Shown: in pieces, positions 23,086 to 41,143 of the stretch
Layout: the number at the start of each line of letters is the position of its first letter
Numbering within the stretch: the first letter of the stretch is position 1
Assembly: GCA_002868925.1 (NCBI GenBank)
Contig: PKTZ01000080.1
Location: 1-42,006, forward strand
Length of the DNA stretch: 42,006 nt
Source of the DNA: Desulfuromonas sp.
Lineage (GTDB): Bacteria; Desulfobacterota; Desulfuromonadia; Desulfuromonadales; UBA2294
Reading direction: 5' to 3'
Notes under the pieces: generated by a model
Database searches by the model: none
What the model was told of the DNA's origin: nothing
The model's input: the letters and a program-made list of their open reading frames with translations, nothing else
Translations under genes and position numbers: made by a program

Positions 23086-23113
23086 GGGACTGTCCCCGAA
23101 TGGGGGCTGTCCC
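23086..23113. repeat. REP-like palindrome copy 1
   Basis: GGGACTGTCCCCGAATGGGGGCTGTCCC. Confidence 0.85.
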
Positions 23114-23160
23114 GAAGCTTTACGTATGGCACTAGTTTAAGGACGGATGCCAGCAAAACC

Positions 23161-23188
23161 GGGACTGTCCCCGCACGGGAGCTGTCCC
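23161..23188. repeat. REP-like palindrome copy 2
   Basis: GGGACTGTCCCCGCACGGGAGCTGTCCC, flanked by GCAAAACC/GGTTTTGC. Confidence 0.85.
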
Positions 23189-23236
23189 TGGGTTTTGCGG
23201 TGCAAACCACCATTGTCCCGTTGTCCGTAAATATCT

Positions 23237-23264
23237 GGGACAGTCCCCATTCGGGGACAGTCCC
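23237..23264. repeat. REP-like palindrome copy 3
   Basis: GGGACAGTCCCCATTCGGGGACAGTCCC, starting 6 bp past the DUF3047 stop and followed by TTTT. Confidence 0.85.
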
Positions 23265-23269
23265 TTTTC

Positions 23270-23915
23270 TCAATCGCCCTGCAGAAACCGGATATCATCG
23301 TACCAACTTTGGGCCGAGCTGCCGGTATTGTCGGAATCACACATGATGGCAACCCCGCCGACCAGGGGCGGTTCCTCGCCGAAAATTTGCTTAAAATCCT
23401 CAAATACGTTGCGCCGCTCTTCGACCCACTGCCCCGCCTTACTGTTGCCGCTTTGCACCGCCAGCATCATGGCGTTGGCGGTAAAAGGGTTCGGCACCAC
23501 CGCCCCTTGAGCCAGGCGGTTGGCCCAGATGTAGTTGATGGCGCGGGTCTTGAAGAAAAGCCAGTGCGGGAAGACGACGTAGACGCGGGCGGCGTAGTCA
23601 TCCCCTTCGCGCCGACTGGCGTCGCCTTTTTCCAAGGTGGATTCGATCTTCCAGCGCCAGGTGAGGACTGGCGTCTTTCCGAGGTCGATTTTCTTACGGA
23701 AATAGAGGCTCGAAGCGGTGCCGTCGCTCCGACAGGAGAGAACCTGCTCTGCTCCGTCCCGGACCGGCCGGTACTCGCTGTGACCGGCGAATTCCTTAAT
23801 CGCCCAGCCGGAGTCGATCCCGTTTTCGAAATCATCGATCAGGAGATCGCCCAAAGCCAGGGAAGCAGATGCCAACAGCACCAGGGTAAGACAGGATATC
23901 AGGGTGGTTTTCAAC
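23270..23915 (-). CDS. DUF3047 domain protein, exported
   Basis: Likely TTG start giving MKTTLISCLTLVLLASASLALG; LTWRWKIESTLEKGDASRREGDDYAARVYVVFP; AVQSGNSKAGQWVEERRNVFEDFKQIFGEEPP. Confidence 0.8.
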
Positions 23916-25479
23916 CGTAACCTCCGCTGTCGATGGCGTTGCGTTGACGGCGGCTCTCCCCCTCGTTGGTGGTCAGGATGGCACTGCGCCCTTCGACCGG
24001 GCACTTGGTTTCGCAGATGCCGCAGCCGATGCAGCGCTTCTTGACCACCTTCGGGAACTTGAGGATGCGCACTTCACTGTTGACCAGCACCTCCTTGCGC
24101 TCGAAGACGATCGCCTTTTCCGCTGTCGGGCAGTGCTCCTCGCAGACCAGACACTCTTCGCTGCGGGCGTAGGGGAGACAGCGGTTCTTGTCGATCACCG
24201 CCAGTCCGATCACCTCTTTTTTCTTCTGCTCCAGCTTCAACTCGCGGATCGCGCCGGTCGGACAGACCTGGCCGCATAGGGTGCAGTTGTACTCGCAGTA
24301 ACCGAGACGGGCAACCAGCAGCGGAGTCCAGAGACCGCTCGCACCGGCCTGAAGGAATGCCGGATGCAGGGCGCCGCCGATGCAAACCTTCATGCACTCG
24401 CCGCAACGGATACAACGACGCAAAAACTCCGCCTCGTCTACCGCCCCGGGCGGGCGGATCAAGAACGAGTCATACCGGGTTGGGTCGGGCGTAATCCGCA
24501 CCACCGGCGCGACCAAAGCGCCGCAGGCGATGGCACCGGCGACGTGGCGACGACCCAAGTCGATGCCGGCCGCCGTTGTCGGCTGCAGGCTCCAGCGATA
24601 AGAAACCCGTTCATCGGGGCAGTCATCAACGCAATCAAGGCATAGAAAGCACTCCTGCTTGCGGTAGCCCTGGTCGGTAACGGCGCGACTGCGGCAACGG
24701 CTTCCGCAGAGGGAGCAGTCGTTGCAGACCGACGCCGGGGTCCGTTCGAGCAAGGTACGGCTGCTGCAGAGACCGAGCAGTCCGCCGAGCGGGCAGACGT
24801 ACTTGCACCAGAAACGGCGATCGACCTTTTCCAGCAGCACGATCAGCACGAACACCGCGAAGGTGAACAGCGCCAGCTGGAAATAGGGTTGGTGAAAAGC
24901 CATCAGGTTGTCGCGGAAGAACGGGTAGGCTCAGTTGAGTAGCGGTGAGACGACCGGGATGTCGCTGCCGTAACTGAGATCGAACAGCCTGTTCAGAAAA
25001 AGGTTGTAGGCCGGGTAGACGGCGAAGGTGAGACTGCGCAGGAAGATACTGAGCGGATCGAACAGGCCGAACAACTGAACCCCGAACAGGGCTGCGGTCG
25101 TTAGCGAAAAGAGCAGGATGTACTTGAAGCGGCGCCAGCCGGCACCGAGCTGACGGTTGCCGCGGCCGATAATCCGGCCGAGTCCGTCGAGGGTGGTGCC
25201 GAGCGGACAGATCCAGCCACAGAAGAAGCGTCCGACGACGGCGGTCAGCACCAGCAGGAGCAGCGCCGGCCAGAGCAGTTGCCAGCCGAAATCACCGGGT
25301 GCCAGAAAATCGGCCAGAGCGGCGAGCGGGTCGATGCGGAAAAGTAGAGAGACCGGGTAAGGGAGCTGGTCGACACCCCGATACTCAGTGACCAGGAACA
25401 GCCACAGAAAGCCGACCAGACAGATAACCTGAGAGGCGATGCGTAACCGGTGACGACTATTTTTTACGCCTTTACTCAA
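23911..25479 (-). pseudogene. Membrane-bound polyferredoxin (NapH/YccM-like) interrupted by one in-frame TGA (24931-24933)
   Basis: ORFs 24931-25479 and 23911-24903 share a frame: ...DIPVVSPLLN*AYPFFRDNLMAFHQPYFQ...; CGWICPLGTTLDGLGR, CKYVCPLGGLLGLCSSRTLLERTP and several CxxCxxC clusters. Confidence 0.85.
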
Positions 25480-26387
25480 ACCATCCTCGCCTTGCTCAGA
25501 TCCATGCTGCCGAGACCGCGCCGGGCGCCGGCGACGATGGTCGGGATATCCTGCGGTTTGTGACCGAACAGAGTCGCCGCATAGCTGTCGGCGGCAACGA
25601 TATCGGCCGAAACGATCAAGATCTCCGGATGGCGAACATCTTTAAGGCTCCCCCCCTGCGGACCGTTGGCAACAAGAATGCGGGTCGCGTCGACGATAAC
25701 CAGGTCGGAATGGATGACACTGTTGATGTCGGCCAGCGACTCGTCGATCCGGCGGTGCAGCACCCCGCGGTTACCGCCGATCACCCCCATGATGTTTTTC
25801 ATCCCGAGGGTCAGGGTCGAAATCGAATGATGCTTGGCGATCGGAACGTTGATCAGCCGGTCCGCCTCGAGCGCCGGCTTGTAGAACGACCACTTGTCGA
25901 GAGCGACGCCGCCATCAAGCAGGACGTCCTGGTAAGCGCGCCGGTCCATAAACTCGATCTTTGCCCGGTCGGAGCCGAGCGCCTCGATCGCAGCACGGAT
26001 ACCGCTCTGGGTATAGCAGCGTCGCGGATCGTTACAGGTCCGATCGAAGACCCGGACCGAGGCCGCTCCCGCCTCGAGGCAGTGCTCGACGACCGCCCGC
26101 ACCACGTCGGGATGGCTGTTTGCCGCCTGCTCCACCGTTCGATCCCAGCCGATGTTCGGCTTGACCACCACGTGTTCTCCCCGCTTGACGAAGCGACCGA
26201 TACCGCCGAGGGCAGCCAGGGTCGTGTCAACCAACTTCGGGATAGCCTGCCCCTTGCGCACCGCCAGTTCCGGGCCGGCTGGCCCGGACGCCAGGCTGGC
26301 GAGATCGAGGATCGGCAGAGAACCTGTAGCGGCGCCGGCTATGGCCAGTTGCAGGGAACGACGGATAAATTGGCGACGATCGATCAT
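25476..26387 (-). CDS. DUF362 domain protein with Tat-like signal
   Basis: MIDRRQFIRRSLQLAIAGAATG; VVVKPNIGWDRTVEQAANSHPDVVRAVVEHCLEAGA; TLGMKNIMGVIGGNRGVLHRRIDESLADINS. Confidence 0.88.
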   Translation of the reverse strand: MIDRRQFIRRSLQLAIAGAATGSLPILDLASLASGPAGPELAVRKGQAIPKLVDTTLAALGGIGRFVKRGEHVVVKPNIGWDRTVEQAANSHPDVVRAVVEHCLEAGAASVRVFDRTCNDPRRCYTQSGIRAAIEALGSDRAKIEFMDRRAYQDVLLDGGVALDKWSFYKPALEADRLINVPIAKHHSISTLTLGMKNIMGVIGGNRGVLHRRIDESLADINSVIHSDLVIVDATRILVANGPQGGSLKDVRHPEILIVSADIVAADSYAATLFGHKPQDIPTIVAGARRGLGSMDLSKARMV

Positions 26388-26401
26388 ATAAATGGCTCCG
26401 C

Positions 26402-27010
26402 TTAGATCAGCCGGTTCTGGCGCAGGAAATCGCGCGCCACCTTTTTCACCTGTTGCTCTTCACCCTTGGCGGACTGTTCCTCGAGCTTGTGGATCGTGGC
26501 GGTGTCGACTTTGCCACCAAGCTTATTGATCAGCCGGGCCAGGGCCGGGAATTTCTTCAGGGTATCCTTGCGCACCACAGGGGCCGCCTCGGCCACGGTT
26601 CCGTCCGGGGCCAGTTTCTTCTCTTCGAAACCGAACGGCTTGAGCCAGACCAGGTTCAGCTCCTGGTTGTAGACGTCCTTGACCGCCTTGTAGAGTTCCG
26701 GCGCTTCGGCAATCGCCGCCTTGCCGAGGATCTTCACCTGGCCGACGCCGGTATACTCGACGTACATATCGAGGTCGGCCTTGAGCAACGCCTGGTGCGC
26801 CTCCTCGTTGCTCTTGAAATTGACGATCTTGACCGTGGTCCCGGTCCGCTCGGTAATCAGCAACGAGAGCATCTGGGCCATCAGGTTCTGTTGCAGGCTT
26901 CCGGTCGTGCCGACCATCAGGGTCTTGCCGACACAGGCATAGGATGAGCCGGATGAGAGCAACAACACGGCCAGTAAAAGGGTCATCGTTTTTTTCATTA
27001 TTCGCGCCAT
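26402..27010 (-). CDS. OpuAC/ProX-like substrate-binding protein, short
   Basis: TLMVGTTGSLQQNLMAQMLSLLITERTGTTVKIVNFKSNEEAHQALLKADLDMYVEYTGVG; signal peptide at N-terminus. Confidence 0.78.
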   Translation of the reverse strand: MARIMKKTMTLLLAVLLLSSGSSYACVGKTLMVGTTGSLQQNLMAQMLSLLITERTGTTVKIVNFKSNEEAHQALLKADLDMYVEYTGVGQVKILGKAAIAEAPELYKAVKDVYNQELNLVWLKPFGFEEKKLAPDGTVAEAAPVVRKDTLKKFPALARLINKLGGKVDTATIHKLEEQSAKGEEQQVKKVARDFLRQNRLI

Positions 27011-27022
27011 CGGTCCATCTCC

Positions 27023-27955
27023 TTACTCGCGCAGTTCTGTTTCAATTTCCATCGGTCCAGGTAACGAATCGGGTGTCTGTACCCGGCCGAGCGTTTCATC
27101 CTGTTTCTGATCGAACATCAGTTCTTCAATCGCGGCAGGATTGGTCGTTCCCCACCAGTTGCCGGGGAAGGTGACGTCCTCTTTTTGGGTCAAGCCCATC
27201 TTGACCGAGTATTGCCTGCTGTCAACGATGTTGTTGCCGCTGATCTTTGCCTTATCCTCGGAGCGGGTCACGACGAAGATGCCGATATCGTTGTTGCGGA
27301 TATCGTTGCCGACCACCACCGCTTCGCTGCGTCGCTCCTCGTAACGCAGGCCATGCCGGTTGTCGTAGATCCGGTTCCCCCGAACCTTGATGTTGACCGT
27401 CGAGAAGCGGACGCCGTCAACATTGTGCCGGAACACCGAATTCGCGACCACGGCCTTACAGAAATGAACCTGGATGCCGCTGTATGCATATTCCGAAATC
27501 ACGTAGGCGACCTCGGCCCGCTTGGCAAAATCGAGGTAGAGATATTTCCAGTCGGCCGGTTGCGGATTCTCCTCACCGCTGGTAAAACGGATCGGCTGCC
27601 CGGCGGTGCCGCGGGCCAGCAGTGTTCCTTCCACCAGCAGTTCACCGTCGCCGATACCGTCGCCGTCCCGATCGAATCGATCGAAAATCACCTCTGTCCC
27701 GGGGGCGATGATCAACTGCCCCTCCTTCTTGACGGTAACGATGCCGTTGATCCGCACCGTCCCGGACCAGGTAACCTTGCCGGAGATCGTTGTATCGCCC
27801 AGCTTTGTTTCGACGGCAGGTGTCAACAGACACCCGCTGACGAAAACGGCGACCAGCAGTCCGCCGAGGGAAACCAGTCCGCAGCAGACTCTCTGTATCG
27901 ACCGTCGTTTAATGATAGTTCCCCGTCGGCTCGATAACATCTCCCGGCTCGACAT
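27023..27955 (-). CDS. Right-handed beta-helix lipoprotein
   Basis: Lipobox-like LVAVFVSGC; repeats such as NRIYDNRHGLRY, NDIRNNDIGIFVV, NNIVDSRQYSVKM; NWWGTTNP. Confidence 0.78.
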   Translation of the reverse strand: MSSREMLSSRRGTIIKRRSIQRVCCGLVSLGGLLVAVFVSGCLLTPAVETKLGDTTISGKVTWSGTVRINGIVTVKKEGQLIIAPGTEVIFDRFDRDGDGIGDGELLVEGTLLARGTAGQPIRFTSGEENPQPADWKYLYLDFAKRAEVAYVISEYAYSGIQVHFCKAVVANSVFRHNVDGVRFSTVNIKVRGNRIYDNRHGLRYEERRSEAVVVGNDIRNNDIGIFVVTRSEDKAKISGNNIVDSRQYSVKMGLTQKEDVTFPGNWWGTTNPAAIEELMFDQKQDETLGRVQTPDSLPGPMEIETELRE

Positions 27956-28214
27956 CGATCGGACCGAACCGCTTTTCGTACTCCTTCAGGTTCGCATCCA
28001 TCGCCGCCAGGAATTTTTTCAGGTGGCGCGGCGAGGTGATCACCCGCGACCGGACCTTGGCCCGCGGTGCCTGCGGCTGCATGAATATAAAGTCGAGGAC
28101 GAACTCGGCGTCGCTATGGTTCATCACCACCAGGTTGGAATATACCCCCTGGGCGACATCTTCGTCGATCTGGATTTCCAGCTTGATCTCCTGCTGTTCC
28201 GCTTTTTTACTCAT
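27909..28214 (-). CDS. DUF3467 domain protein
   Basis: QGVYSNLVVMNHSDAEFVLDFIFMQPQAPRAKVRSRVITSPRHLKKFLAAMDANLKEYEKRFG. Confidence 0.88.
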   Translation of the reverse strand: MSKKAEQQEIKLEIQIDEDVAQGVYSNLVVMNHSDAEFVLDFIFMQPQAPRAKVRSRVITSPRHLKKFLAAMDANLKEYEKRFGPIDVEPGDVIEPTGNYH

Positions 28215-28236
28215 CTTCTCTCCTTGGCAATCGATT

Positions 28237-29271
28237 TTATTGCAGGCTGATCGGTTCGACGACGATCTCTATACGATCGATCGAACTATCAGCGTTTATA
28301 GTCAGTCCGTGATCGGCGCTTTGATCGTACATGCCGAACAGTTCGCCCGGTGCCGGTGAATCGCCGTACTCCTGGCGGGCACCGATGTAATAGGTGCCGG
28401 GCTGCCCGAGGTTCAGCTGAAACCGACCGTCGGTACCGGTTGCGACCGACAGGGCAGCCGGCCGTTTGTGACCGATAACCCGATCGGTATAAGCGAAAAC
28501 ATGCAGGCCGGCAACCGGCTCCCCCCGATCATCGACCACCCGGCCGGTCACGACCTGGCCGGATGCCGTTGTGATCGTCTCGCTGGCGGCCTCCGATTTC
28601 ACCTTCTCGACCACCGGGATCGTAACCCGGGTGACCGTACCCGATCTGGCGATCACCGGGTTGCCACCGTAGACACCGAGCAGATCCCCTTCCCGTACCG
28701 GGCCGACCCGGTTTCCGTCCAGCCGCTTGCGCACCATGAGAAAGTAGCTGCTCTCCGGCAGGCCGTCGAAATAGAATTGCCCGTCCGGCCCCGTCGGCAT
28801 TGACAGGCGATAGCCCTGCCCCTTGAGCCCCTCGTCAACATCGAGGTAAAGGTAGGCGTAGGCATCGGTCACCGGCTCTCCCCGGGAGGTGATGCGCCCC
28901 TCGATCGCCGCGCTATATTCGTCATCGTAGCGCCGAATCTCGGCCGTCGGCAGCGGCACCGCCTGCAATCCGGCCCAGACCGTTCCGTTCTCGACCGTAA
29001 CCGGGTTGCGTCCGCAAAAAGCGAAGAGCCCTTGCTCGACATCTCGTACGAACAGGGCATAGGTCCCGGCCGGGACCTCGATCCGGTAGTAGCCTTCGCT
29101 ATCGCTCGGCGCCGCGACCAGCAGCGGTTCACCGCTGTAGTCAAGGCCCGGGTAGAGCACAACCCGGACACCGGAAACCGGCCCATCATCGGCAACGATC
29201 CGCCCCTCGATCAGCGCGGCGTGCACCGGCAGCGTCAGCAGAAGCAGACATATGGCGAGAAGGGTTCTCAC
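28237..29271 (-). CDS. Carboxypeptidase-regulatory-like (Ig-fold) repeat protein, exported
   Basis: GTG start, MRTLLAICLLLLTLPVHAALIEGRIVADDGPVSGVRVVLYPG; later GRVVDDRGEPVAGLHVFAYTDRVIG. Confidence 0.8.
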   Translation of the reverse strand: MRTLLAICLLLLTLPVHAALIEGRIVADDGPVSGVRVVLYPGLDYSGEPLLVAAPSDSEGYYRIEVPAGTYALFVRDVEQGLFAFCGRNPVTVENGTVWAGLQAVPLPTAEIRRYDDEYSAAIEGRITSRGEPVTDAYAYLYLDVDEGLKGQGYRLSMPTGPDGQFYFDGLPESSYFLMVRKRLDGNRVGPVREGDLLGVYGGNPVIARSGTVTRVTIPVVEKVKSEAASETITTASGQVVTGRVVDDRGEPVAGLHVFAYTDRVIGHKRPAALSVATGTDGRFQLNLGQPGTYYIGARQEYGDSPAPGELFGMYDQSADHGLTINADSSIDRIEIVVEPISLQ

Positions 29272-30656
29272 TGCGCCTCCCGTGGGCCGACAGCAGCGAC
29301 CGGAGCTTCGAGCCACGGCCGGTATCCGACCAGGTCGATCCGGTAACTCTCCGGGCCGAAGCCCTCGTAGGTGACCCACTCCTTGTCGAGCCGGTCGTAG
29401 AAGAGATCGAGGTTCTGGCCTTTTTCGGCCTGTTGCAGGGTCGATGTTTTGTCGTTCCACCAGTTGCCGCTGACATCGACGATATCGTTGAACGTCTCCG
29501 GCGCCCGATCGAGCATGGTGTTGCGGCTGTTGCGGGCCTGCGCCTCTTTCTGCATCAGCTTTTTCGAACCGGAGCGCTTCTCCCAGTCAGCGCTCTGGTA
29601 GATACCGAGCTCGACCGCCAGCCGGTTATCCGAGAAGTTGTTCTGCTTGACCCGTGGGTAAGACGAGTAGTCGCAATAGAGGGCGACCCCGCTCTTCTCG
29701 ATCCGGTTGTTTTCGATCACCGGGTTCGACTTGCGGTAGTTGTAGATGGCCGTTTCGTTGCCGCGGAACAGATTATACACCAGGCGGGGTGAACCGTACT
29801 GGTCGTTGCGTACCGCCATCTTGTTGTCGATGAAACTGTTATCCTCTATTGCCGGGTAGGCAAAGGCGTAGTTGACGATCGCTACTTCGTTCTTCTCGAA
29901 CCGGTTGCCCTTGATCATCGGCGTGTTCTTGGTCTGGTTACAGTAAAGGCCGATCCGGTTCTCTATAAAAATGTTATCGACGATCCGATCCTGGTAGGTC
30001 TGCAGTAGGCCGATCCCCTGTTCATTCCCTTCAAACCGGTTGCCGCGAATCTCGCCCCGGCTGTTGTGCGATGCCAGGATCGCGGTCTTGTGCTGCCCCT
30101 TGAACAGGTTGTCGCGGATCAGCGGCACCGATTTCATTTCGTTGTCGATCGCCATGTCGTTCTCTTCGAACCGGTTCCGCTCGATCAGCGGATTCGACTC
30201 GCGCAGCAGCTTGATCGCCGTCACCCACCCGGAAAAGTGAGCATCGGTCACCTCGAAATCGGTAGCGACACTGCTGAGCGCGGTTTCACCATTATGAAAG
30301 TGGGCATGCCGGATCACGCTCCCCTTTTCGGCCTCGATGAAGTGGATTCCCTGCCAGCCCTCGATCCCGGTCACGACAACCGGACTCTTAGCTCTCCCTT
30401 CAATCGCCAGAATACCGCTGATCGTAATCTTTGCCGAAGGCGAAGCTACCGTAATTTCAACCCCGGGCCGGACCAGAAGTCGGCTGCCACGTGGAATGTT
30501 CAGCGGCTGATCGAGCTGCACATTTTCCTGCCAGACGGTCTCACCGGCCGGCAGATTCTGTGCTACCGCCAGCCCTGCGCACAGGAATGTGAACAGGCAG
30601 GCGACCAGGAGAATACAGCTCGGGGCAATGCTATTTTGCAGACTGCGCTTCGACAT
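29268..30656 (-). CDS. Right-handed beta-helix (NosD-like) exported protein
   Basis: Signal peptide plus tandem NRFEENDMAIDNE, NRFEGNEQGIGLL, NRFEKNEVAIVNY, NSFIDNKMAVRND repeats; NWWNDKTST. Confidence 0.88.
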   Translation of the reverse strand: MSKRSLQNSIAPSCILLVACLFTFLCAGLAVAQNLPAGETVWQENVQLDQPLNIPRGSRLLVRPGVEITVASPSAKITISGILAIEGRAKSPVVVTGIEGWQGIHFIEAEKGSVIRHAHFHNGETALSSVATDFEVTDAHFSGWVTAIKLLRESNPLIERNRFEENDMAIDNEMKSVPLIRDNLFKGQHKTAILASHNSRGEIRGNRFEGNEQGIGLLQTYQDRIVDNIFIENRIGLYCNQTKNTPMIKGNRFEKNEVAIVNYAFAYPAIEDNSFIDNKMAVRNDQYGSPRLVYNLFRGNETAIYNYRKSNPVIENNRIEKSGVALYCDYSSYPRVKQNNFSDNRLAVELGIYQSADWEKRSGSKKLMQKEAQARNSRNTMLDRAPETFNDIVDVSGNWWNDKTSTLQQAEKGQNLDLFYDRLDKEWVTYEGFGPESYRIDLVGYRPWLEAPVAAVGPREAQ

Positions 30657-31674
30657 CTATCTCGATCTCCAAAACGTTTTTCTTATCGTCCAGTTTAACA
30701 GCATGATCGGAATTACCATCGAACTTGCCGTAAAGCTCGCCATCACCGGCCGGGCCACCGAAGCTCTCCCGGGCCAGCAGGTAGTAGGGACCGTTGCCGG
30801 GGAGTTTCAATTCGAACCGTCCGTCCAGGCCGGTGGGCGGTGAAAAAAAGTCGGGGGTGCCGGTCATCTCAGCTTCGAGGTAGGCGAAGACATGCAGGCC
30901 GGCGACCGGCTTGCCGTCGTGACCGGTCACGACCCCTTTGATCCCGCGGAAGGGAGCAGCCTCTCCCTCTTCGAGCATCGGCATCCGGGTAATCGTCTCG
31001 ATCTTGACTTCGGCTACCCTGTTTTTTTCCACCGTCACCGGGTTGCCGTAGTAGTAGTTGAAATAATCACCGATCTCGATCGGCCCGAACTGTCCTCCCT
31101 TGGCCCGCTTGCGGGCGAGCAGGTAGTATTCTCCCGGCGGCAACCGCAGGCGGAAATCCCCCTTGGCCACCGGCTGCACGAAATAACCCGGCCCCTTGAA
31201 CCCCTTGCTTGGATCCTTGTAGACGTAGAGGTAGGCTCGCTCCAGCGGCTCACCCTGGAAGCTGAGTTCGCCGCTGATACCGGAAGATGAAGCTTCAACC
31301 GGTGGCGCCTCCGTGGGGATCTTGATCAGGTTGAATCCGACCGTGGTCCGGTGGTCGGCGCTGACCCGGATCGGGCTGCCGCTGTAGTAGCAAAAATAAT
31401 TTCCCGGCTGCGGTTGCCCCTCGTAATCACGCGCAGTCAAGAAGTAGCTGCCGGGGGGAAGATCGAGGGAATAGGTCCCGTCGACCTTTGAGGGGGCTGC
31501 CACCGCGACATGCTTGCCGGCGGCGATATCGGCAATCTGGCGATAGGCGCGCACGGTAATTCCGGGAACCAGCTCGCCGCGCCAGGCGATCCGCCCCCGG
31601 ATGCCGCTTTCGGCGAAGGCCGCCGTTGTCGTGACCAACAACAGCGCGGTTATGATCAGAGCGACTCTTTTCAT
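30631..31674 (-). CDS. Carboxypeptidase-regulatory-like repeat protein, exported
   Basis: MKRVALIITALLLVTTTAAFAESGIRGRIAWRGELVPGITVRAYRQ; GVVTGHDGKPVAGLHVFAYLEAEMTGTPDFFSPPTGLDGRFELKL. Confidence 0.83.
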   Translation of the reverse strand: MKRVALIITALLLVTTTAAFAESGIRGRIAWRGELVPGITVRAYRQIADIAAGKHVAVAAPSKVDGTYSLDLPPGSYFLTARDYEGQPQPGNYFCYYSGSPIRVSADHRTTVGFNLIKIPTEAPPVEASSSGISGELSFQGEPLERAYLYVYKDPSKGFKGPGYFVQPVAKGDFRLRLPPGEYYLLARKRAKGGQFGPIEIGDYFNYYYGNPVTVEKNRVAEVKIETITRMPMLEEGEAAPFRGIKGVVTGHDGKPVAGLHVFAYLEAEMTGTPDFFSPPTGLDGRFELKLPGNGPYYLLARESFGGPAGDGELYGKFDGNSDHAVKLDDKKNVLEIEIDVEAQSAK

Positions 31675-32855
31675 TCTTTCTCTTTACCCTGCAAAGACGA
31701 TTGTTGCAGCCAAGGGCTGAAGATAACGGTATCGAGAGGATAGTCCTGCCCTTCTTCGACGAAGGTCGGACGGTCTCGCCCGTCATCGATAAAACCGGGG
31801 TTGCCGTCCGCACCGATCTTTTCCAGTTCGGCCGTACCGGCTTTGCCCCACCAGTTGTCACGGGCATCGACCGTGCCGTCCATGCTGCGCGGCGGCGGAA
31901 GCTCGGTTGACGACTTGTCGAGGCTGCCGAAGGCGGAGCGACTGCTCGTCGCCTGCCGGGTCGACGCCCCTTTCGTTTTCTCCCAGTTGCTCGACTGGAA
32001 TTCGAGGTAAAGCGCCTTGCCGTTATCGACAAAATCGTTGTGCCGGATCTCCGGATAGGAGGAGAAGGCGATCTCGATGCCGGTTTCATTGTTGGCCAGC
32101 AGGTTGTTCTCGATGACCGGGTCGGCCCGGCGATAGAGCGAGATACCGACTTCGTTGTTGCTGATATCGGAGCCGGTGATCCGCGGCCGGGCCGCCTTCT
32201 CGACCCTGAGGGCGACCTTGTTCTGGTCGAAGCAGTTATCGCGTAGCTCCGGATCGCTGCCCGAGTAGGCGACCATCAGGCCGGTGTCGTGCCGACTGAA
32301 AACATTGCCACTGAAGCGCCGCGGCGTCGAGCGGAAGATATAGGCGCCATAACGGCCGTTCTCTTCGAACTTGTTATTGAGCACCGCCGCCTTCACCCCG
32401 TCCTTGAGGAAGAGACCGACCTTGCGGTTCTGCTTGAAAACCGAGCCGGCGACCGTCGCATCACTCTTCTGGCGGAGCTCGATCCCGACGTCATTGCCGA
32501 CAAGAGTTAACTGCTCGAGCCGTGGCTCGCCGCCGATGACCTGGATGCCGATTTTGGCACCGGAGACTTCGCTCTCGGTCAGCAGGGTCGCAAGGGTGCA
32601 GCCTTTGAGCACGATCCCTTCCCATTTCTTTCCTTTGAAAACGGCACCGCGAGCCGACATCCGCCCGGCTACCTCGAGTCCGCCGGCGGTGAAGATTACG
32701 GTCGTGCCCGGTTTAACGACGAGTTCGGCGCCCGGTTCGACCCGGACCTTTTCGTCGATCCGCTTCTCACCCTCCCAGACAACCTTGCCGGTAAGCAGGA
32801 CAGCGCCGGAGACGGATGGAAGTAACAACAGGATGATGACAACCAACAAGCGCAT
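31671..32855 (-). CDS. Right-handed beta-helix exported protein
   Basis: Start MRLLVVIILLLLPSVSGAVLLTGKVVWEGEKRIDEKVRVEPGAELVVKPGTTVIF; NCFDQNKVALRVE, SDISNNEVGISLY, NLLANNETGIEIA repeats. Confidence 0.87.
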   Translation of the reverse strand: MRLLVVIILLLLPSVSGAVLLTGKVVWEGEKRIDEKVRVEPGAELVVKPGTTVIFTAGGLEVAGRMSARGAVFKGKKWEGIVLKGCTLATLLTESEVSGAKIGIQVIGGEPRLEQLTLVGNDVGIELRQKSDATVAGSVFKQNRKVGLFLKDGVKAAVLNNKFEENGRYGAYIFRSTPRRFSGNVFSRHDTGLMVAYSGSDPELRDNCFDQNKVALRVEKAARPRITGSDISNNEVGISLYRRADPVIENNLLANNETGIEIAFSSYPEIRHNDFVDNGKALYLEFQSSNWEKTKGASTRQATSSRSAFGSLDKSSTELPPPRSMDGTVDARDNWWGKAGTAELEKIGADGNPGFIDDGRDRPTFVEEGQDYPLDTVIFSPWLQQSSLQGKEKE

Positions 32856-33943
32856 TACCAGACCTCGCGCACGATAATATCGGCAAGATCTACCGCCTTG
32901 CCGGTTTCGATGGCGACGGAGTGATCGGCCGCGACATCGTAGGTACCGACCCACTCGCCCGGTTCCAGCGGCCCGCCGAAGGTGCTGCGGGCGCCGAGGA
33001 AATAGGTGCCGCCATCGGTCAGGTTGAGCCGGTACTGTCCGTCGTCGCCGGTCGGGGCCGAGATGAAGGTCGGCTTGCCGACCATGCGGCTGTCGAGGTA
33101 GGCAAAGACGTAGATACCGGAAATCGGTTCGCCGTCGCGGTTGACCACTTTGCCTTCGAAACGGGTCGTGGTCTTCTCGAACTTGCCGGCGGCCAGCCGT
33201 TTCTCCTTCTCGGTCGCATCGACCCGGGTCAGAGCCAGGTCGCCCAGTTCAACATACTGACCGGAGACCACCTCGACCGGATTCCCGGCAAAGCTGCCGT
33301 TGAGATCATCAGCTTCCGGTTCTCCCATCTGCTCGCCGTCGGCCCGCTTGCGCGCCGACAGGAAAAAACGGCCGGAAGGCAGTTCGATCCGGAAGTTGCC
33401 GGAGTCGTCGCTCTGTACCGCCTCGCCGTAGGAAGGGCCGATCAGCCCAGACTCCCTGGCCGTGTAGACGTAAACGAACCCTGAATCGACCGGCTGATCA
33501 GCATAGACCAGGCGGCCCTTGACTCCGGTTTGCGGTTCCGGAACCAGTCCGGCATCCCGTCCCATCTCGCGCAGCGGAAACGGCGCTACTGAAAGGAGGC
33601 TGTCCTTCACCTCGACCGGATTGGCCGGGCACTCGGCCATCAGCATCCGGGTCCGCCCGCCCTCGATGGTCTTCTTTTTGCCGATAATGAAATAACTGCC
33701 AGCAGGCAGGCTGATACGGTAATGCCCTTCACTGTCGGTCGAGGTCGTCGCGAACGGCAGGGTCGAACGATCCTTCTCCGCCTTGAGGTAGATTTCGACC
33801 GATGCCCCGGCCAGCGGCACATCCTCGAACTGAAGTTCGCCGCGCAGCCCGCTCTCGTCACTGCCGCGGCAGGAGAAGAGTAGTACCGTCAGCACAAAAA
33901 CCGATATAAAAATCGAGCAACGTCGCATCGATGTTCCGTCCAT
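32855..33943 (-). CDS. Carboxypeptidase-regulatory-like repeat lipoprotein
   Basis: FVLTVLLFSC lipobox-like; GKVVNRDGEPISGIYVFAYLDSRMVGKPTFISAPTGDDGQYRLNLTDGGTYFLGARSTFGG. Confidence 0.82.
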   Translation of the reverse strand: MDGTSMRRCSIFISVFVLTVLLFSCRGSDESGLRGELQFEDVPLAGASVEIYLKAEKDRSTLPFATTSTDSEGHYRISLPAGSYFIIGKKKTIEGGRTRMLMAECPANPVEVKDSLLSVAPFPLREMGRDAGLVPEPQTGVKGRLVYADQPVDSGFVYVYTARESGLIGPSYGEAVQSDDSGNFRIELPSGRFFLSARKRADGEQMGEPEADDLNGSFAGNPVEVVSGQYVELGDLALTRVDATEKEKRLAAGKFEKTTTRFEGKVVNRDGEPISGIYVFAYLDSRMVGKPTFISAPTGDDGQYRLNLTDGGTYFLGARSTFGGPLEPGEWVGTYDVAADHSVAIETGKAVDLADIIVREVW

Positions 33944-36384
33944 CAGTTAGCAGAAATCTGTCGTCGCGGCAGAACGACCACCAGCAGCGCCAGCAAGTAA
34001 ACCATTTCGCCGAGCAGCAGGGTTATGGTGAATCCAAAATTCATTGCCAGCACTACCGCGATCAGTGCTCCCCAGACGCTGGTGGCGCTGTTGATCCCCC
34101 AACTCCAGGGGATGCCGTCCGGCGTCCGGTGCAGCAATTTCATTCCGACCGGCAACGGCATGCCGAGCAGCATCCCGAGCGGCGCCAGCAACAGCACAGA
34201 GACCAGGCAGCGCGTCACCAACGATGCCGTCATCGCCAGGTCGAGGATATGCGGCAACCCGAAAATATAAAGATTAGAGAGCAAAACCAGTGCCAACAGA
34301 ATCCGCGGCAGAGCCCGCTGTTCACGGCCGGAAGAGAGCCGTCCGGAGAGCAGGCTACCGAGCCCCGAAAAGATCAGCAGGGCACAGAGAATAACCGCCA
34401 GGGCGTAGATCGGCTGACCGAGAATAAGGATAAAGCGGCGCAGCAGTCCGATCTCGATCAACATGAAGCCGAGCCCGAGGCAACTGAAGTAGACGATACG
34501 GTGCAAGGCACCCTCTTCCCGTAGCGCCTGACGGCGCCAGATCAACAGCGGCAGCAACAGGAAAACGGCGACCGCAACCGTGACCACGAGCAGCAGGTTG
34601 CGCAGGGTCAGAAGCGCCCGATCCTCGAAGGAACTCTTCTCAGGAAAAGAGAAAAGCTTAATAAAGTCAGACGGTTTGAGCATGTAGTAAAAAAATGGAC
34701 GATCATCGGTGGTGGCACTCAGATCGAACGGCAGGGAATTGTGAAACGCTTCGCTGCCGCCGGAAGCGATGAGGCGATTAAACAGACCATCGCCGCCCCG
34801 TTCATCCGGCAGGTAGACGACGCGGAAGCCCTTGCTGCGCGCTTCCCGGCGCAGGGTTTCGACCTGCTCGGGACTAAATGGTGAGCGCTTGAGCATAACG
34901 TTGGCCAGACCCCGTTCCTTGATCACCGCCAGGTGAGCACCGGGGTCGGCAGCCCCCTCTTCCTCGAGCAATGCCAGAGCCAGAGAGACTAGGCGCAGGG
35001 TTTCACGTTCAAAAATAAAGCGGGAGATCGTCAGAATTCCGTCTTGTGACAGATGATCCCAGTAGTCCCGGAACGCCTCGAGGGTGTAGAGGTTGTTCTC
35101 CGACAGGGTAAAGGCACCGGCGGCCGGAGCGGTCCGCCCGAAAACGGCCGAAGCCTGGATTACGTCAAAACTCTCGGGAGAGCGTCGGACATAGTTGCGT
35201 CCTTCGTCGATGGCGAGTTTCACCTTCGGTCGGCGATAGAGCTTACCGGTGAAGGCGGCGAACTGGTCATTGACCGCCTCGGCGATCAGCGAGTTCATCT
35301 CGACCGCCCGCACCTCGGAGGCGCCCATCGCCAGCGCCACCAGCACATCCTTGCCGCCACCCGGCCCGATCACCAGCGACTTGGCCAGGGGATGAAACAG
35401 GTATGGCAGGGCGATGACGTTGCTCCGGAAAAAGTCATCGTAGCGGCCATCGCCGTCCCGGAACATGGTCGTGTAACCGGTATCGTCGACGACCATACCG
35501 AGCTGCTCCGGGATCGGTCCACGGTAATTGCGCGACAGGCCCCAGGCCTGCCCCATCTCCTGGCTCTGCGAAGGATAGACCGCGACCCGGGAGAAAGAGT
35601 TCCAGCCGCTCCAGAGCAGGTTCGGCTCGTAACGCCCCCGCACGAAGCGGATCTCTGCAAAACCGGTCGTCACATTGCCGATGGCTGCCGCCAGCAACAA
35701 TAGCCCCGCCACCATGATAAACAGACGTCTCCCCGGCGCCGGAGCGGGTGGATAGAAGAACAGCGCGGCGCCGAGTCCGAACAGGGCGATCGCCAGGATG
35801 GCGGTAATCCCGCCGAGCAGGTGCAGCAGTACGATGATCAACAGACAACCGATACCGGCTCCGAGCAGATCCCAGAAATAGAGGCGGTTGATATCGGCCA
35901 GGTAACGACCGAGCAGCAGCGCCAGCACCAGTCCGCTGAAGAAGAACGGCAAGGCGGTCACCAGGTAGAGGGCAAACAGGGCGGGCAACATCGACAGCGC
36001 CATCCCCTGCTCGTAGAACCCCTGCTTGAACGGCTGGTAAAACGGCTGGTGGAAGAACGAAAGGACCTTGAATCCGATTAAAGGCTGCAATCGGAAGAGT
36101 ACGAAAATGGCAAAGAAGAGCGCCACCGAAAGAGCGAACAGGACGCTGCAGCTCCCCGCAATCTGCCGGGTCCGTTCCGGTGGGAACCAGCCGGGTCGAA
36201 GGTAGACCAGCAGGGCGGCGCAGCCCATCCCGAACAGGGCGAGCGAGATCGCCATCGACGCAAAGTGGTACCACATCAGGACCGAGAAAATCCTGGTCAG
36301 GGCGATCTCGTACATCAGGGTGGCGAGGCAGAGAAGGAAGATGCCTCCGAAAAGCCGGCCGTCGGGGCGATCAATCGAGGGCAT
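33943..36384 (-). CDS. Membrane-fused spermidine-synthase-like methyltransferase-fold protein
   Basis: N- and C-terminal multi-TM segments around SLVIGPGGGKDVLVALAMGASEVRAVEMNSLIAEAVND and ...LAIDEGRNYVRRSPESFDVIQASAVFG. Confidence 0.85.
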   Translation of the reverse strand: MPSIDRPDGRLFGGIFLLCLATLMYEIALTRIFSVLMWYHFASMAISLALFGMGCAALLVYLRPGWFPPERTRQIAGSCSVLFALSVALFFAIFVLFRLQPLIGFKVLSFFHQPFYQPFKQGFYEQGMALSMLPALFALYLVTALPFFFSGLVLALLLGRYLADINRLYFWDLLGAGIGCLLIIVLLHLLGGITAILAIALFGLGAALFFYPPAPAPGRRLFIMVAGLLLLAAAIGNVTTGFAEIRFVRGRYEPNLLWSGWNSFSRVAVYPSQSQEMGQAWGLSRNYRGPIPEQLGMVVDDTGYTTMFRDGDGRYDDFFRSNVIALPYLFHPLAKSLVIGPGGGKDVLVALAMGASEVRAVEMNSLIAEAVNDQFAAFTGKLYRRPKVKLAIDEGRNYVRRSPESFDVIQASAVFGRTAPAAGAFTLSENNLYTLEAFRDYWDHLSQDGILTISRFIFERETLRLVSLALALLEEEGAADPGAHLAVIKERGLANVMLKRSPFSPEQVETLRREARSKGFRVVYLPDERGGDGLFNRLIASGGSEAFHNSLPFDLSATTDDRPFFYYMLKPSDFIKLFSFPEKSSFEDRALLTLRNLLLVVTVAVAVFLLLPLLIWRRQALREEGALHRIVYFSCLGLGFMLIEIGLLRRFILILGQPIYALAVILCALLIFSGLGSLLSGRLSSGREQRALPRILLALVLLSNLYIFGLPHILDLAMTASLVTRCLVSVLLLAPLGMLLGMPLPVGMKLLHRTPDGIPWSWGINSATSVWGALIAVVLAMNFGFTITLLLGEMVYLLALLVVVLPRRQISAN

Positions 36385-38221
36385 GCGTTGCGCTCCCCGG
36401 CTTGACCAGTTTCAGGCCGTAGAGGTTGTGGTCACGGCTGCCGATGACAATTTGATCGGCATCGATCAACGGCGAACTCTGCACGGCGCCGTCGACCCGG
36501 AACTGGCTGACCACGGTGCCGCTCTGTTGACCGACCGCCGACAGGTTGCCGTCGTTGTCACCGAACAGGACCAGGCCGTCGGCAACGACCGGGGTCGAGT
36601 AGATCGGTCCGAAACCGGTCTGGCGCCAGGAGGTGCGGCCGTCTATTGCATCCAGTTTCCAGAGCGTTCCGGCGGCTGTCCCGACAAAAAGGGTGCCGTC
36701 GATATAAACCGCGCCCGCGTAGTAGGCAGATTCGTCGAGTTGCCGTTCCCAGCGCACGCTCCCGTCACGACTCAGACCGAAGACCGCACCGCTGCGCGTC
36801 AGCAGCACCGGACCGTGCGGAGTCACGGCCGGCGTAGAGAGCAGCGCATCACCGGTATCATACTGCCAGAGAAAGCGTCCCTCGAAATCGAGCGCGGTGA
36901 GGATACCGCCGCCGCTGGCGATATAGATCCGATCCCCATCGATGGCCGGAGCCGCCCTGAGCGGCAGCCCGGCATCGTATTGCCAGAGCCGCTGGCCGCT
37001 CGATGCGTCGAGGGCATAGAGGGTACCGTTCCAGGCCGGCAGCAACACCATGCCGGCGTTGACAACGATACCGCCCTGGCGGTGGTCGTCGGCCGGAGAC
37101 GGAGAAAAACTGAAGCGCCAGACATCGCTGCCGGTCGCCGGATCGATGGCGAACAGCTCACGCCCCCAGCTCTGCGCAAACAGGAGCTTGCCGTCGGTCG
37201 CCGGGGTCGCATCGATGACATCGCCGAGCGAGCGCGACCAGAGCTTCATGCCGGCCCGATCGAGGGCCGAGATCCGGCCGTCCCATGATGCGGCGATTAT
37301 CCTCTCGCCGACCGAGACCGGGTTCGCATCGATAAAACCGTCGGTAGCATAGCGCCAGGACTCTTCGAACCTCGCCACGATCCGTGGACCGGTCCGTTCC
37401 ACCCACTGCTCCGCCGGCTCGACGAACACTTCACCGATATGCGGATCGACCCGCCGGTCATGAATCCGGCCGCGGATCGCTTCCGGGTCGGCACTCCCCC
37501 ACCAGTTCGACTTGAGATAAACCTCACCACTGAAGAAATCACCGAGGCGGATATTGTCAATGTTGTCGTGAATGTTGTTATGGTGGATCGACGACTCGCG
37601 ATCGGTTTCGAAAAGGAAGATACCGGAGCCGTTATTGCGGATGATGTTGCGACTGACCTCGACGGTCGCGTTGCGGAAATTGATCGCCTTGCCCTGGTTC
37701 TGCTCGAACAGGTTGTTGCGGAAGATGAAGCTCGCTTCGCCCAGGCGACAGCCGTCGATGTTGTTACGGACGATGCTGTCCTCCATCAGCCCGCGGGTAA
37801 AATGGGCATGCAGGGTGTAGGCGGAGTCGCGGATCTCGCAATACCGGAAATGGACCTCTTTTGAGAAATCGACCCGGATTTCGAGCCAGTCTCCCGGCTT
37901 CGGCTCCAACTCGGCACTGCGAAACCGGATCGGCAGCTCGCGGGTCCCGGTCGCCTCCAATTCCCCTTCGATGACCAGGGTCCCGTCACCGAGCCCATCT
38001 TTGTCACGGTCATGCCGGATAAAAGAGATATCGCTGCCTGGCATGATGGTCAGGGTCGCTCCCTTGGCGACCTTGACCGAACCAGCGATGACGATCTCAC
38101 CTTCCCAGACGGTGTCGACCGCGATGTGGGCATCGCTCAACCGTAATGGTCGGCCGGCACCGAACGGGCTGCAACCGATCAACATTACTGTCATTATGGT
38201 AAAAAGAATAAAGCGGAACAT
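36371..38221 (-). CDS. Right-handed beta-helix fused to PQQ-like (BamB-like) beta-propeller, exported lipoprotein
   Basis: MFRFILFTIMTVMLIGCS lipobox; beta-helix repeats and NWWGSADPEAIRGRIHDRR, then AGMKLWSRSLGDVIDATPATDGKLLFAQSWGRELFAIDPATGSDVWRF propeller blades. Confidence 0.87.
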   Translation of the reverse strand: MFRFILFTIMTVMLIGCSPFGAGRPLRLSDAHIAVDTVWEGEIVIAGSVKVAKGATLTIMPGSDISFIRHDRDKDGLGDGTLVIEGELEATGTRELPIRFRSAELEPKPGDWLEIRVDFSKEVHFRYCEIRDSAYTLHAHFTRGLMEDSIVRNNIDGCRLGEASFIFRNNLFEQNQGKAINFRNATVEVSRNIIRNNGSGIFLFETDRESSIHHNNIHDNIDNIRLGDFFSGEVYLKSNWWGSADPEAIRGRIHDRRVDPHIGEVFVEPAEQWVERTGPRIVARFEESWRYATDGFIDANPVSVGERIIAASWDGRISALDRAGMKLWSRSLGDVIDATPATDGKLLFAQSWGRELFAIDPATGSDVWRFSFSPSPADDHRQGGIVVNAGMVLLPAWNGTLYALDASSGQRLWQYDAGLPLRAAPAIDGDRIYIASGGGILTALDFEGRFLWQYDTGDALLSTPAVTPHGPVLLTRSGAVFGLSRDGSVRWERQLDESAYYAGAVYIDGTLFVGTAAGTLWKLDAIDGRTSWRQTGFGPIYSTPVVADGLVLFGDNDGNLSAVGQQSGTVVSQFRVDGAVQSSPLIDADQIVIGSRDHNLYGLKLVKPGSATHALD

Positions 38222-38377
38222 GGCGGATTATCATAGCACGTTCCGTTCCAAGGACGAATCTTAAGAACAAGTTTCCGGGGATTGCCGAAAAGCCGATCAG
38301 GGGAGGCGAAAGCAACAGAAAAGTGCCGGGAAAATCCCGACCCTCTTACTGTCAATCCAATTGTGTCTTACTCGTTT

Positions 38378-38434
38378 TTAGCAGGGGTGAACGTTACCGC
38401 TGCCAACCACTTTCGGCTTCATGTACTTTTTCAT
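38378..38434 (-). CDS. Candidate 18-aa peptide MKKYMKPKVVGSGNVHPC
   Basis: AAAGGAG (plus 38441-38447) 6 nt before ATG; ORF ends TAA; not in the supplied ORF track because of length. Confidence 0.5.
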   Translation of the reverse strand: MKKYMKPKVVGSGNVHPC

Positions 38435-38477
38435 AACATGCTCCTTTGGTTATAACGCTAGAGAACTGTTCCTATGT

Positions 38478-39905
38478 TTATTGACTGATCGTAATTATCT
38501 TACCGGTATCGGCCTTGACCGACTTGCTGCTGCCATCGGCAAAGACGACCGTTACATCATAGCTACCCGCCTGCAGTCCGAAATGCGCGACATTGGGTGA
38601 CTGGGCACAGAAGCCGTCGGCCGACTTGATTTCACGAACTGCAAGAGCCTTGCCGTTCTGACTGACCGAAACCTTGGCACCGTAACCGCTCCCCTTGCCG
38701 GCAACCTTCACCTTCAGGTAGTTGCCATCGTTCTGCTGGTTCAGGTAGAGCTTGTTCGGAGCACCCCAGTTGACCACGTAGAGATCGAGGTCGCCGTCGT
38801 TGTCAACATCGGCGAAGGCGGTCCCCTTGGTACGCACGGTCGAGCACTGCAGGACCGGCTGGGCATCGGCGACATTCTTGAAGCTGCCGGCGCCGTCGTT
38901 GACGTAGAGCTGGTTGGCCAGCTTGCAGTCACCCTCGTAAAGGTCGAGGTCGCCGTCATTATCGATATCGCCGAAGGTCGGGCCCTTGCCCCAGCCCTCA
39001 TGGGCACCGGCAATCTGGGCAGTCGCCTCGGTGAAGGTCCCGTTGCCGTTGTTCAGGTAAAGATTGTTTTTACCGACATAGTTGGAGACGAAGAGATCTT
39101 GATCGCCATCGCTGTCGATATCGGCAAAGGAGGCTCCGAGGCCCCAGTTGCCGTCAGCAACACCCGCTTCACGGCCGACATCGCTGAAGGTGCCGTCGCC
39201 GTTGTTGCGATAAAGCTTGTTCGCCTCACCGACCGGGTAGCGACCGTTGACGACGTAAAGGTCGACGTCGCCGTCGTTGTCGATATCAGACCAGACGCCC
39301 ATCCAGCTCCAGGAGCGATCGCCGACACCGGCAGCATCGGTCACGTCGCTGAAGGTGCCGTCGCCGTTGTTGCGATAAAGGACGTTCTTGGCGCCGACGC
39401 CGTAGTTGGCGCAGTAGATGTCGAGGTTGCCGTCATTGTCATAGTCAGCGAACGAGGCGGCGTAGGTGAAGGCCTTCAGCCCGACTCCCGCTTCTGCGGT
39501 AACGTCGGTGAAGGTTCCGTCGCCGTTTCCTTTGAACAGACGGTTAGCTTCGATCTCGTGACGACCGCCGGTCGCGATGTAGAGGTCGGCGTTGCCATCG
39601 TTGTTGTAATCACCAAAGACGCTCCCCATGGCGAAACCGGGGTAATCAACACCGGCACCGGCAGTATCGGTGATATCCTCGAAACGACCGTTGCCGTTGT
39701 TCAGGAAAAGCTTGTTGGCCCCACCCTTGTTGGAAACATAGAGATCGACCAACCCGTCATTATTGACATCGGCGAAGGCAACACCTTTACCGAGGCCATC
39801 GTCGGCAACGCCGGCCGCATCGGATACGTCGGCGAAGTTGGCGGCGTAAGCCGAACCGGCCAACAGGGCCAACCCCAGACCCAGAGATAAAATCTTCTTG
39901 AACAT
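38478..39905 (-). CDS. FG-GAP/VCBS repeat beta-propeller exported protein with C-terminal ASPIC/UnbV-like domain
   Basis: MFKKILSLGLGLALLAGSAYAANFADVSDAAGV; repeated FADxDNDGxxDLYVxN...NKLYxNNGDGTFxDVT; C-terminal NYLKVKVAGKGSGYGAKVSVSQNGK. Confidence 0.9.
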   Translation of the reverse strand: MFKKILSLGLGLALLAGSAYAANFADVSDAAGVADDGLGKGVAFADVNNDGLVDLYVSNKGGANKLFLNNGNGRFEDITDTAGAGVDYPGFAMGSVFGDYNNDGNADLYIATGGRHEIEANRLFKGNGDGTFTDVTAEAGVGLKAFTYAASFADYDNDGNLDIYCANYGVGAKNVLYRNNGDGTFSDVTDAAGVGDRSWSWMGVWSDIDNDGDVDLYVVNGRYPVGEANKLYRNNGDGTFSDVGREAGVADGNWGLGASFADIDSDGDQDLFVSNYVGKNNLYLNNGNGTFTEATAQIAGAHEGWGKGPTFGDIDNDGDLDLYEGDCKLANQLYVNDGAGSFKNVADAQPVLQCSTVRTKGTAFADVDNDGDLDLYVVNWGAPNKLYLNQQNDGNYLKVKVAGKGSGYGAKVSVSQNGKALAVREIKSADGFCAQSPNVAHFGLQAGSYDVTVVFADGSSKSVKADTGKIITISQ

Positions 39906-40189: not shown

Positions 40190-41143
40190 TCAGAACAGTG
40201 ACTGACCAACCAGACCGACAAGCATCGCCAATCCGAGCACCACTCCAAGAAAAACGAGGACCACCCTTTTTTTGAACATGCCACCCAGAGCGATCATCGC
40301 CGGCAGGCTCGAAACCGGCCCGGCCAACAGGAACGTCAAACCGGCGCCCGGGTCGATGCCGCGCTGCAGCAGACCGGCCAGAACCGGGATCGCCGGGATC
40401 TGGTTCAGCGGCAGCGGCAAACCGATCAGCGCCGCCATGACGATCGAAACAATATCGTTACGGCCGACCAGAACGGTGACCCATGCCATCGGCACCAGGG
40501 TCACGATGATCGCCTCGATAACGATCGCCAACAACAGGAACTTGCCGACGAAAAGAGCGGCATCAAGGCTGCGATCGAAGATGAATCGGAGCTGGCTCTT
40601 GCGCGGGATGATCTGCATCCGCTTGACGTGGATGCCGGCTTGGGCACCAATCTCCGCCGCCGGCGCCAGATTGCCCTCATCAGTATAAACCGGCTTGAGC
40701 AACAACAGGTCGCCGGCAAGATACCCTTGCAGGATCAGGAGCTGCGTCACAACGCCAGTACCGATACCGATCACGCCGGCACCGACCAGCTTCCAGATCG
40801 CCCAGTCGGCCCCGAGGCCGCGCCAGGTCAGCAAAAAGGCATCCGGCCCCATCACCGGCGAGGTCGCCAGCAGCGCCAGCAGCGGCGGCAGCGGCGTGCC
40901 GACCATCGCCAGCGAGATGGCGACCGGGAGGATGCCGCAAGCGCAGAGCGGCGAAACCATACCGACCCCGGTCGCGATAAAGATTCCGGCCATGCCGGCC
41001 CGGTTGACCGCATCGCGGATCTTGAGATCGAGCTTATAGCCCTTGATCAAACCGACCAGCAGCACCGAGAGCAGGAAGAACCACCACATGCGGGTGACCT
41101 CCTCCCAGACTACGCCGGCGATTTGAATCAGCACCTCGCTCAC
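40190..41143 (-). CDS. Permease of the UPF0718/ArsP-like family
   Basis: Multi-TM protein with GVGMVSPLCACGILPVAISL and LLATSPVMGPDAFLLT. Confidence 0.82.
   Translation of the reverse strand: MSEVLIQIAGVVWEEVTRMWWFFLLSVLLVGLIKGYKLDLKIRDAVNRAGMAGIFIATGVGMVSPLCACGILPVAISLAMVGTPLPPLLALLATSPVMGPDAFLLTWRGLGADWAIWKLVGAGVIGIGTGVVTQLLILQGYLAGDLLLLKPVYTDEGNLAPAAEIGAQAGIHVKRMQIIPRKSQLRFIFDRSLDAALFVGKFLLLAIVIEAIIVTLVPMAWVTVLVGRNDIVSIVMAALIGLPLPLNQIPAIPVLAGLLQRGIDPGAGLTFLLAGPVSSLPAMIALGGMFKKRVVLVFLGVVLGLAMLVGLVGQSLF

Follow-up and report, generated by a model that had tools for sequence, protein, structure and literature searches.

What is the long run of minus-strand genes between positions 23,270 and 39,905 of a 42,006-nucleotide Desulfuromonas sp. 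contig (PKTZ01000080.1; the whole stretch is called the window here), and what might it serve? We conclude that this gene block is a real conserved system. Our favoured interpretation, to which we give a probability of roughly 0.4, is that it represents an undescribed quinol-driven envelope or periplasmic system supporting giant extracellular multihaem cytochromes; the block could be a new accessory system in metal- or electrode-respiring bacteria. To our knowledge, the export, assembly and anchoring of giant multihaem cytochromes are largely unknown processes; a conserved, deletable operon that tracks these proteins within a metal-respiring order makes the question testable.

Open reading frame (ORF) calls and Pfam scans identified about 17 genes running in one direction, which encode exported, membrane and lipid-anchored redox proteins (Table 1), in agreement with the coordinates and start-to-stop overlaps listed in an earlier note on this DNA. 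On the minus strand between 38,221 and 23,270, neighbouring genes were never more than 27 nt apart and the majority overlapped (BHPQQ/SpdS by 14 nt, SpdS/CP1 by 1, BH2/CP2 by 4, CP2/BH3 by 26, DUF3467/BH4 by 47 and DUF362/polyferredoxin by 4), with gaps of 22 nt at CP3/DUF3467, 12 nt at BH4/OpuAC and 14 nt at OpuAC/DUF362. Intervals of 256 nt and 284 nt set apart the FG-GAP gene and the FmdE-ArsP pair, respectively; the latter (40190-41622), just upstream, belongs to the conserved block. Pfam matches confirmed the earlier note's three beta-helix/CarboxypepD_reg pairs, its beta-helix-PQQ fusion and its FG-GAP/ASPIC protein, and its view that nearly all products are exported or membrane proteins held, with signal sequences or lipoprotein-type N-termini being recognised by eye on the FG-GAP, beta-helix, CP, OpuAC-like and DUF3047 proteins. 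The domains it had called Ig-like are transthyretin/CarboxypepD_reg domains, and its gene list, correct for the genes it named, had omitted the OpuAC-domain protein and a small ORF that we take to be DUF3467-like from its motif.

SpdS orthologues with 60-78% identity, clearly apart from the 30% paralogues, were found in roughly one third of 118 genomes of the order. The order FmdE-ArsP-(FG-GAP)-(CP4)-BHPQQ-SpdS-CP1-BH2-CP2-BH3-CP3-DUF3467-BH4-OpuAC-DUF362-polyferredoxin-(DUF3047) was read directly in about 30 genomes, with losses noted for each locus; among the named carriers are Geothermobacter hydrogeniphilus HR-1, a Malonomonas metagenome-assembled genome (MAG) and Geopsychrobacter MAGs. 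At 34-43% identity, much of this order also occurs in MAGs from distant lineages, one from Deferrisomatales and others bearing the label Proteobacteria or Deltaproteobacteria. For nine block proteins, pairwise distances correlated with those of SpdS (r = 0.87-0.97, a value partly due to the mixing of near and distant lineages). Given the shared order, its presence in distant lineages and these correlations, the arrangement is not due to chance. The independent scattering of the genes in relatives that the earlier note named as evidence against its proposal was not observed; the block was kept, and in two families it was divided into two coherent modules. One could still envisage that slow rearrangement keeps functionally unrelated neighbours together, as long-range synteny around hgcAB and the DAHP synthase gene is likewise kept; however, the genes overlap, each module stays intact after the split, and the order holds at 34-43% identity in lineages with different flanks, so that the lack of any common function is most improbable. 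No description of the gene set was found in the open-access papers searched; together with its conservation as a block and the export or membrane location of nearly all products, this supports the earlier proposal of an undescribed envelope and redox system. The newness lies in the composition of the system rather than in a proven mechanism.

The split loci (families f5 and f15) define the modules. Module A, SpdS-CP1-BH2-CP2-BH3-CP3-BH4, comprises the SpdS-like membrane protein and three exported transthyretin/CarboxypepD_reg plus beta-helix pairs, and module B, FmdE-ArsP-CP-BHPQQ-OpuAC-DUF362-polyferredoxin, includes a fourth pair, CP plus BHPQQ. At separate places in these genomes, module B adjoins a response regulator-GGDEF gene and module A adjoins a divergent unit of a haem-protein-like gene (with a sub-threshold DMSO_red_II_gam match), CP4, a HEAT lipoprotein and a second NapH-like polyferredoxin. 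A replacement of the beta-helix-PQQ gene by the haem-protein-like gene was ruled out, since the former had moved with module B and remains there wherever the block is split. Two further features were noted. The divergent unit next to module A contains a fourth gene of the CP type, which is shorter (L028:18670-19332 and similar), and L039:1640-2722 encodes a lipoprotein that resembles a cytochrome, has conserved CHH and CX3CH motifs and shows weak kinship to the haem b subunit of type II dimethyl sulfoxide reductase. The many exported repeat proteins and the adjoining GGDEF-domain response regulator would also fit a surface structure of beta-helix and transthyretin-like proteins, be it an adhesin, S-layer-like or glycan-modifying, with the redox genes being incidental. 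This we consider unlikely, because the redox genes belong to the best conserved parts of the block and are kept even where module A is missing, and a second polyferredoxin and the haem-protein-like gene join in other families.

Which structure the block might serve, left unnamed in the earlier note, was approached through co-occurrence in 117 relatives. Giant cytochromes matching PF09698 were present in 32 of 37 genomes with a SpdS orthologue, taken to represent module A, but in only 11 of 80 without (Fisher 2e-14; within-family Cochran-Mantel-Haenszel [CMH] p 2e-6). Restriction to quality-filtered genomes, listed by hand and thus approximate, gave 25/27 versus 6/56, and a second probe, the N-terminal 400-amino-acid (aa) stretch of one giant cytochrome, gave 29/37 versus 7/80. 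As a control, LarC showed no within-family link (p 0.3); a phylogenetic profile with LarC was discarded as uninformative, LarC being nearly universal in the order. In five genomes (G016, G032, G040, G050 and G006), giant cytochrome genes encoding 1,225-3,272 aa and 15-54 CXXCH motifs are found no more than about 25 kb from module A, and in the first four a ResB-like cytochrome c synthesis gene, named by eye from its sequence, is also near. These results point to giant multihaem cytochromes as the structure served by module A. As a separate observation, giant-cytochrome families with 24-51 CXXCH and the common start HNFDCKNCH (L028, L029, L040, L047 and flanks L134-L139 and L150) are accompanied by a ResB-like gene; three of the four genomes also have a second fusion gene there, of SpdS-like or MFS-like type.

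Several observations weigh against this interpretation. In genomes of other orders of the class, probably Geobacterales, PF09698 cytochromes are numerous but the orthologue is missing, with nothing closer than weaker homologues (217-375 bits), which excludes a general requirement of the block for such cytochromes. The DUF362-polyferredoxin pair occurs without module A: G003 retains the FG-GAP, DUF3467, DUF362, polyferredoxin and DUF3047 genes in the absence of SpdS, and in the other orders DUF362 was present in five of five loci read, with a polyferredoxin nearby in three. G002 carries the block, and neither probe found a giant cytochrome there. Only families f15 and f5 show the physical linkage, which the block lacks in the genus of the window; in G001, G015 and G048, the parts of the flanks that were inspected contained no recognisable giant PF09698 gene, though G015 has a 17-CXXCH ORF in its flank. 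The genomes are not independent, and stratification by family is a partial correction only. The association is thus order-level and correlative, and may reflect a common lifestyle rather than a direct function.

The mercury methylation gene hgcA has a similar but weaker association (31/37 versus 26/80). In the window, hgcA and hgcB lie at 18859-20247 on the plus strand (450.8 bits against a cut-off of 275, and 133.9 against 99), and they are close to module B here as well as in G001 and in some genomes of families f8, f13 and f5. One could therefore imagine that ArsP and FmdE, with DUF362 and the polyferredoxin, process or export a methylated metal or metalloid in connection with mercury methylation. 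Within families, however, the association weakened (CMH p 0.02; 1e-3 on filtered genomes), the block is found without hgcA in G006, G007 and G040, and SpdS and the beta-helix genes are left unexplained. Housekeeping genes recognised by eye (DAHP synthase, YggT-like and DivIVA-like) keep the same neighbourhood, suggesting that the proximity of hgcAB is probably inherited synteny. We regard a metal or metalloid function as quite unlikely.

If the block does support giant cytochromes, its products suggest how. The polyferredoxin, of the NapH-NapG type, would carry electrons from the quinol pool to the periplasm, where the DUF362 protein, exported by the twin-arginine translocation (Tat) pathway and having a LarA fold, and the one-lobe OpuAC-derived protein would act on or pass along a redox or metal-dependent factor. 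Between the membranes, the beta-helix and transthyretin-like proteins, which alternate and in several cases are lipoprotein-like, would make up a scaffold for maturing, anchoring or wiring the giant cytochromes or one of their partners. The data show the conserved gene order, the two modules, the export signals, the folds, the cytochrome association within the order and, for five genomes, the linkage on the DNA, while the electron flow, the scaffold and all biochemical steps are inferred. SpdS would be a nucleotide-binding or transport component of the inner membrane rather than an aminopropyltransferase. Its AlphaFold2 (AF2) model (pLDDT 74.9) has a Rossmann domain between helix bundles, the nearest PDB folds in Foldseek are aminopropyltransferases, and hmmsearch also reached spermidine synthases from SpdS. 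The glycine-rich nucleotide-binding motif GPGGGKD is conserved, but the catalytic Asp of DSTDP is missing (IIDSTDP aligned with QASAVFGRMAP); the motif position reads VFGRMAP in block SpdS proteins and VDTWAA-type in many wider relatives, and SpdS scored 33.8 bits against the SpeE equivalog cut-off of 260. For the OpuAC-like protein, residues 31-137 and 142-200 of the profile correspond to opposite ends of full-length solute-binding proteins, and the middle segment is missing compared with solved relatives, so that the two-lobe ligand cleft is not present.

The earlier note had suggested that the system draws electrons from the polyferredoxin, a plausible inference. About 30 Cys positions are conserved, including 4Fe-4S motifs, and the membrane NapH part is present, with scores below the equivalog cut-offs (NapG 98 versus 269 bits; NapH 37-42 versus 234). 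In the window, the gene is a single 522-codon frame with an in-frame TGA at 24931-24933 (minus strand). Selenocysteine was ruled out, as the codon at this position stands for Ala, Gly, Gln or Arg in relatives; the only other matches in the genome were weak, which leaves a nonsense mutation or an assembly error as the explanation. The main rival to cytochrome support is a Nos-like maturation apparatus, in which the polyferredoxin, like NosR, and the beta-helix proteins, like NosD, would assemble the metal centre of a periplasmic metalloenzyme or a cofactor encoded elsewhere, with no relation to giant cytochromes. It agrees with the Pfam NosD/Beta_helix and NapH/NosR-type ferredoxin matches, with the LarA fold of DUF362, and with the presence of LarC, a gene of nickel-pincer cofactor synthesis, in 36 of 37 carriers, though LarC is nearly universal in the order. 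Yet the beta-helix proteins scored only 27-57 bits against the NosD equivalog cut-off of 300, no NosZ or NosFY-type ABC pair was recognised, partly by eye, among the ORFs of the block loci, and the linkage and co-occurrence with giant cytochromes are left unexplained. We view this alternative as possible but somewhat unlikely.

The twin-arginine motif (RR-x-F) of the DUF362 protein was invariant in 24 of 24 aligned sequences, and none of the top 19 PDB matches of its AF2 model (pLDDT 88.8) in Foldseek fell outside the LarA family (best E 2.9e-8, TMq about 0.5). This kinship is already known, since Pfam clan CL0471 holds both DUF362 and LarA (PMC11770544). One LarA from this class scored just under the cut-off against the DUF362 model, and a DUF362-ferredoxin protein just over it against Lar_N; direct profile-profile comparison of the shallow alignments gave nothing useful, and the Pfam scan of the window protein returned DUF362 only, with no LarA_C match. 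When a hidden Markov model (HMM) built from DUF362 proteins, block members included, was aligned locally with LarA sequences, H187 and K197, both invariant in the block family, fell at low scores on His174 (catalytic) and Lys184 (cofactor-binding) of LarA, residues with roles described in PMC11770544 and PMC7583248. The invariant H211 and R83, outside the HMM alignment, are candidates for the nickel ligand His200 and the phosphate-binding Arg75, and the position of catalytic His108 is apparently Asp115 as judged by eye outside the alignments. In a more specific version of the proposal, the DUF362 protein would carry a hydride-transfer cofactor of the nickel-pincer type, or a related one, in the periplasm; powered by electrons that reach it from quinol via the polyferredoxin, it would modify or assemble giant surface cytochromes on the beta-helix/transthyretin scaffold. 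We hold this to be very unlikely as stated; if true, extracellular electron transfer would include a periplasmic redox chemistry of a new type. In the papers searched, we found no description of a LarA-fold protein that has a twin-arginine signal and is encoded beside a quinol-linked polyferredoxin.

Table 1. Features of the gene block and its neighbour in the window.
Feature	Module	Coordinates	Strand	Evidence and remarks
FmdE-family protein	B	41140..41622	-	PF02663 E 1.4e-19; directly upstream of ArsP in many relatives
ArsP-type permease	B	40190..41143	-	PF03773 E 7.8e-39; same-place orthologues 62-75%
Exported FG-GAP/ASPIC beta-propeller protein		38478..39905	-	start MFKKILSL; PF13517 4.5e-68, PF07593 1.1e-6; adjoins SpdS in relatives
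BHPQQ, lipoprotein-like beta-helix + PQQ/BamB-like propeller fusion	B	36371..38221	-	PF13360 3.8e-53, PF05048 2.1e-8
SpdS, two transmembrane helix bundles flanking a spermidine-synthase-like Rossmann domain	A	33943..36384	-	PF01564 barely above cut-off
CP1, transthyretin/CarboxypepD_reg domains, lipoprotein-like N-terminus	A	32855..33943	-	PF13620 8.8e-15; Cys25 conserved
BH2, exported parallel beta-helix protein	A	31671..32855	-	start MRLLVVII; PF13229 4.5e-34
CP2, exported transthyretin/CarboxypepD_reg protein	A	30631..31674	-	PF13620 3.9e-13
BH3, exported parallel beta-helix protein	A	29268..30656	-	PF13229 6.5e-25
CP3, exported transthyretin/CarboxypepD_reg protein	A	28237..29271	-	start VRTLLAIC; PF13620 1.2e-16
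DUF3467-like small protein (presumed)		27909..28214	-	homologous ORF at same position in relatives, 26 sequences in all
BH4, beta-helix protein, lipoprotein-like N-terminus	A	27023..27955	-	PF05048 1.3e-9; Cys42 conserved
OpuAC-like exported protein without second lobe	B	26402..27010	-	PF04069 in two stretches; invariant Cys ends signal peptide
DUF362 protein, twin-arginine signal, LarA fold	B	25476..26387	-	PF04015 1.6e-47
Polyferredoxin, fused NapH-like + NapG-like domains	B	23911..25479	-	split here by in-frame TGA
Exported DUF3047 protein		23270..23914	-	PF11249 2.9e-63; absent from some relatives
Response regulator-GGDEF		20521..21438	+	PF00072, PF00990; beside module B in several families

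The start codons of BH2, CP3 and DUF3047 lie downstream of the longest-ORF starts. A scan for sigma-70 consensus promoters performed no better than chance, and the operon limits are therefore unproven; terminator-like sites exceeded those in shuffled sequences (32 versus 18.5). At 23050-23270, the start of ORF 22488-23273 codes for a GTVP-type repeated peptide and contains a GTCCC/GGGAC inverted repeat, which looks like a repetitive extragenic palindromic (REP)-type repeat within an over-long ORF call.

Compared with known systems, the block shares with the porin-cytochrome conduits (Pcc, Ext and Mtr) an association with multihaem cytochromes of metal reducers, but has no recognised outer-membrane porin or cytochrome of its own: it contains no CXXCH-rich ORF, and Pfam scans gave no barrel family match. 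Like Nos (NosR, NosD and NosFY), it combines a periplasmic parallel beta-helix protein with a membrane polyferredoxin feeding the periplasm; unlike Nos, it has four beta-helix proteins paired with transthyretin-like proteins and scoring far below the NosD cut-off, and no NosZ, NosFY-type ABC pair or NosL was seen. As in the NapGH/MauMN quinol dehydrogenase ferredoxins, a membrane part resembling NapH is combined with a ferredoxin part that resembles NapG, with conserved Cys quartets; the block version, however, is fused into one protein, scores below the NapG and NapH cut-offs, and has no nitrate reductase seen nearby. Fused major facilitator superfamily (MFS)/spermidine synthase-like proteins also place a Rossmann domain between two helix bundles, but the block SpdS carries VFGRMAP in place of the catalytic-Asp motif and has its own operon context. 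With the LarA superfamily of nickel-pincer nucleotide racemases, the DUF362 protein shares the fold, the catalytic His, the cofactor-binding Lys and clan CL0471; it differs in its Tat signal, in lacking a LarA_C match and in an apparent Asp115 at the position of the first catalytic His, and any bound nickel or cofactor is putative.

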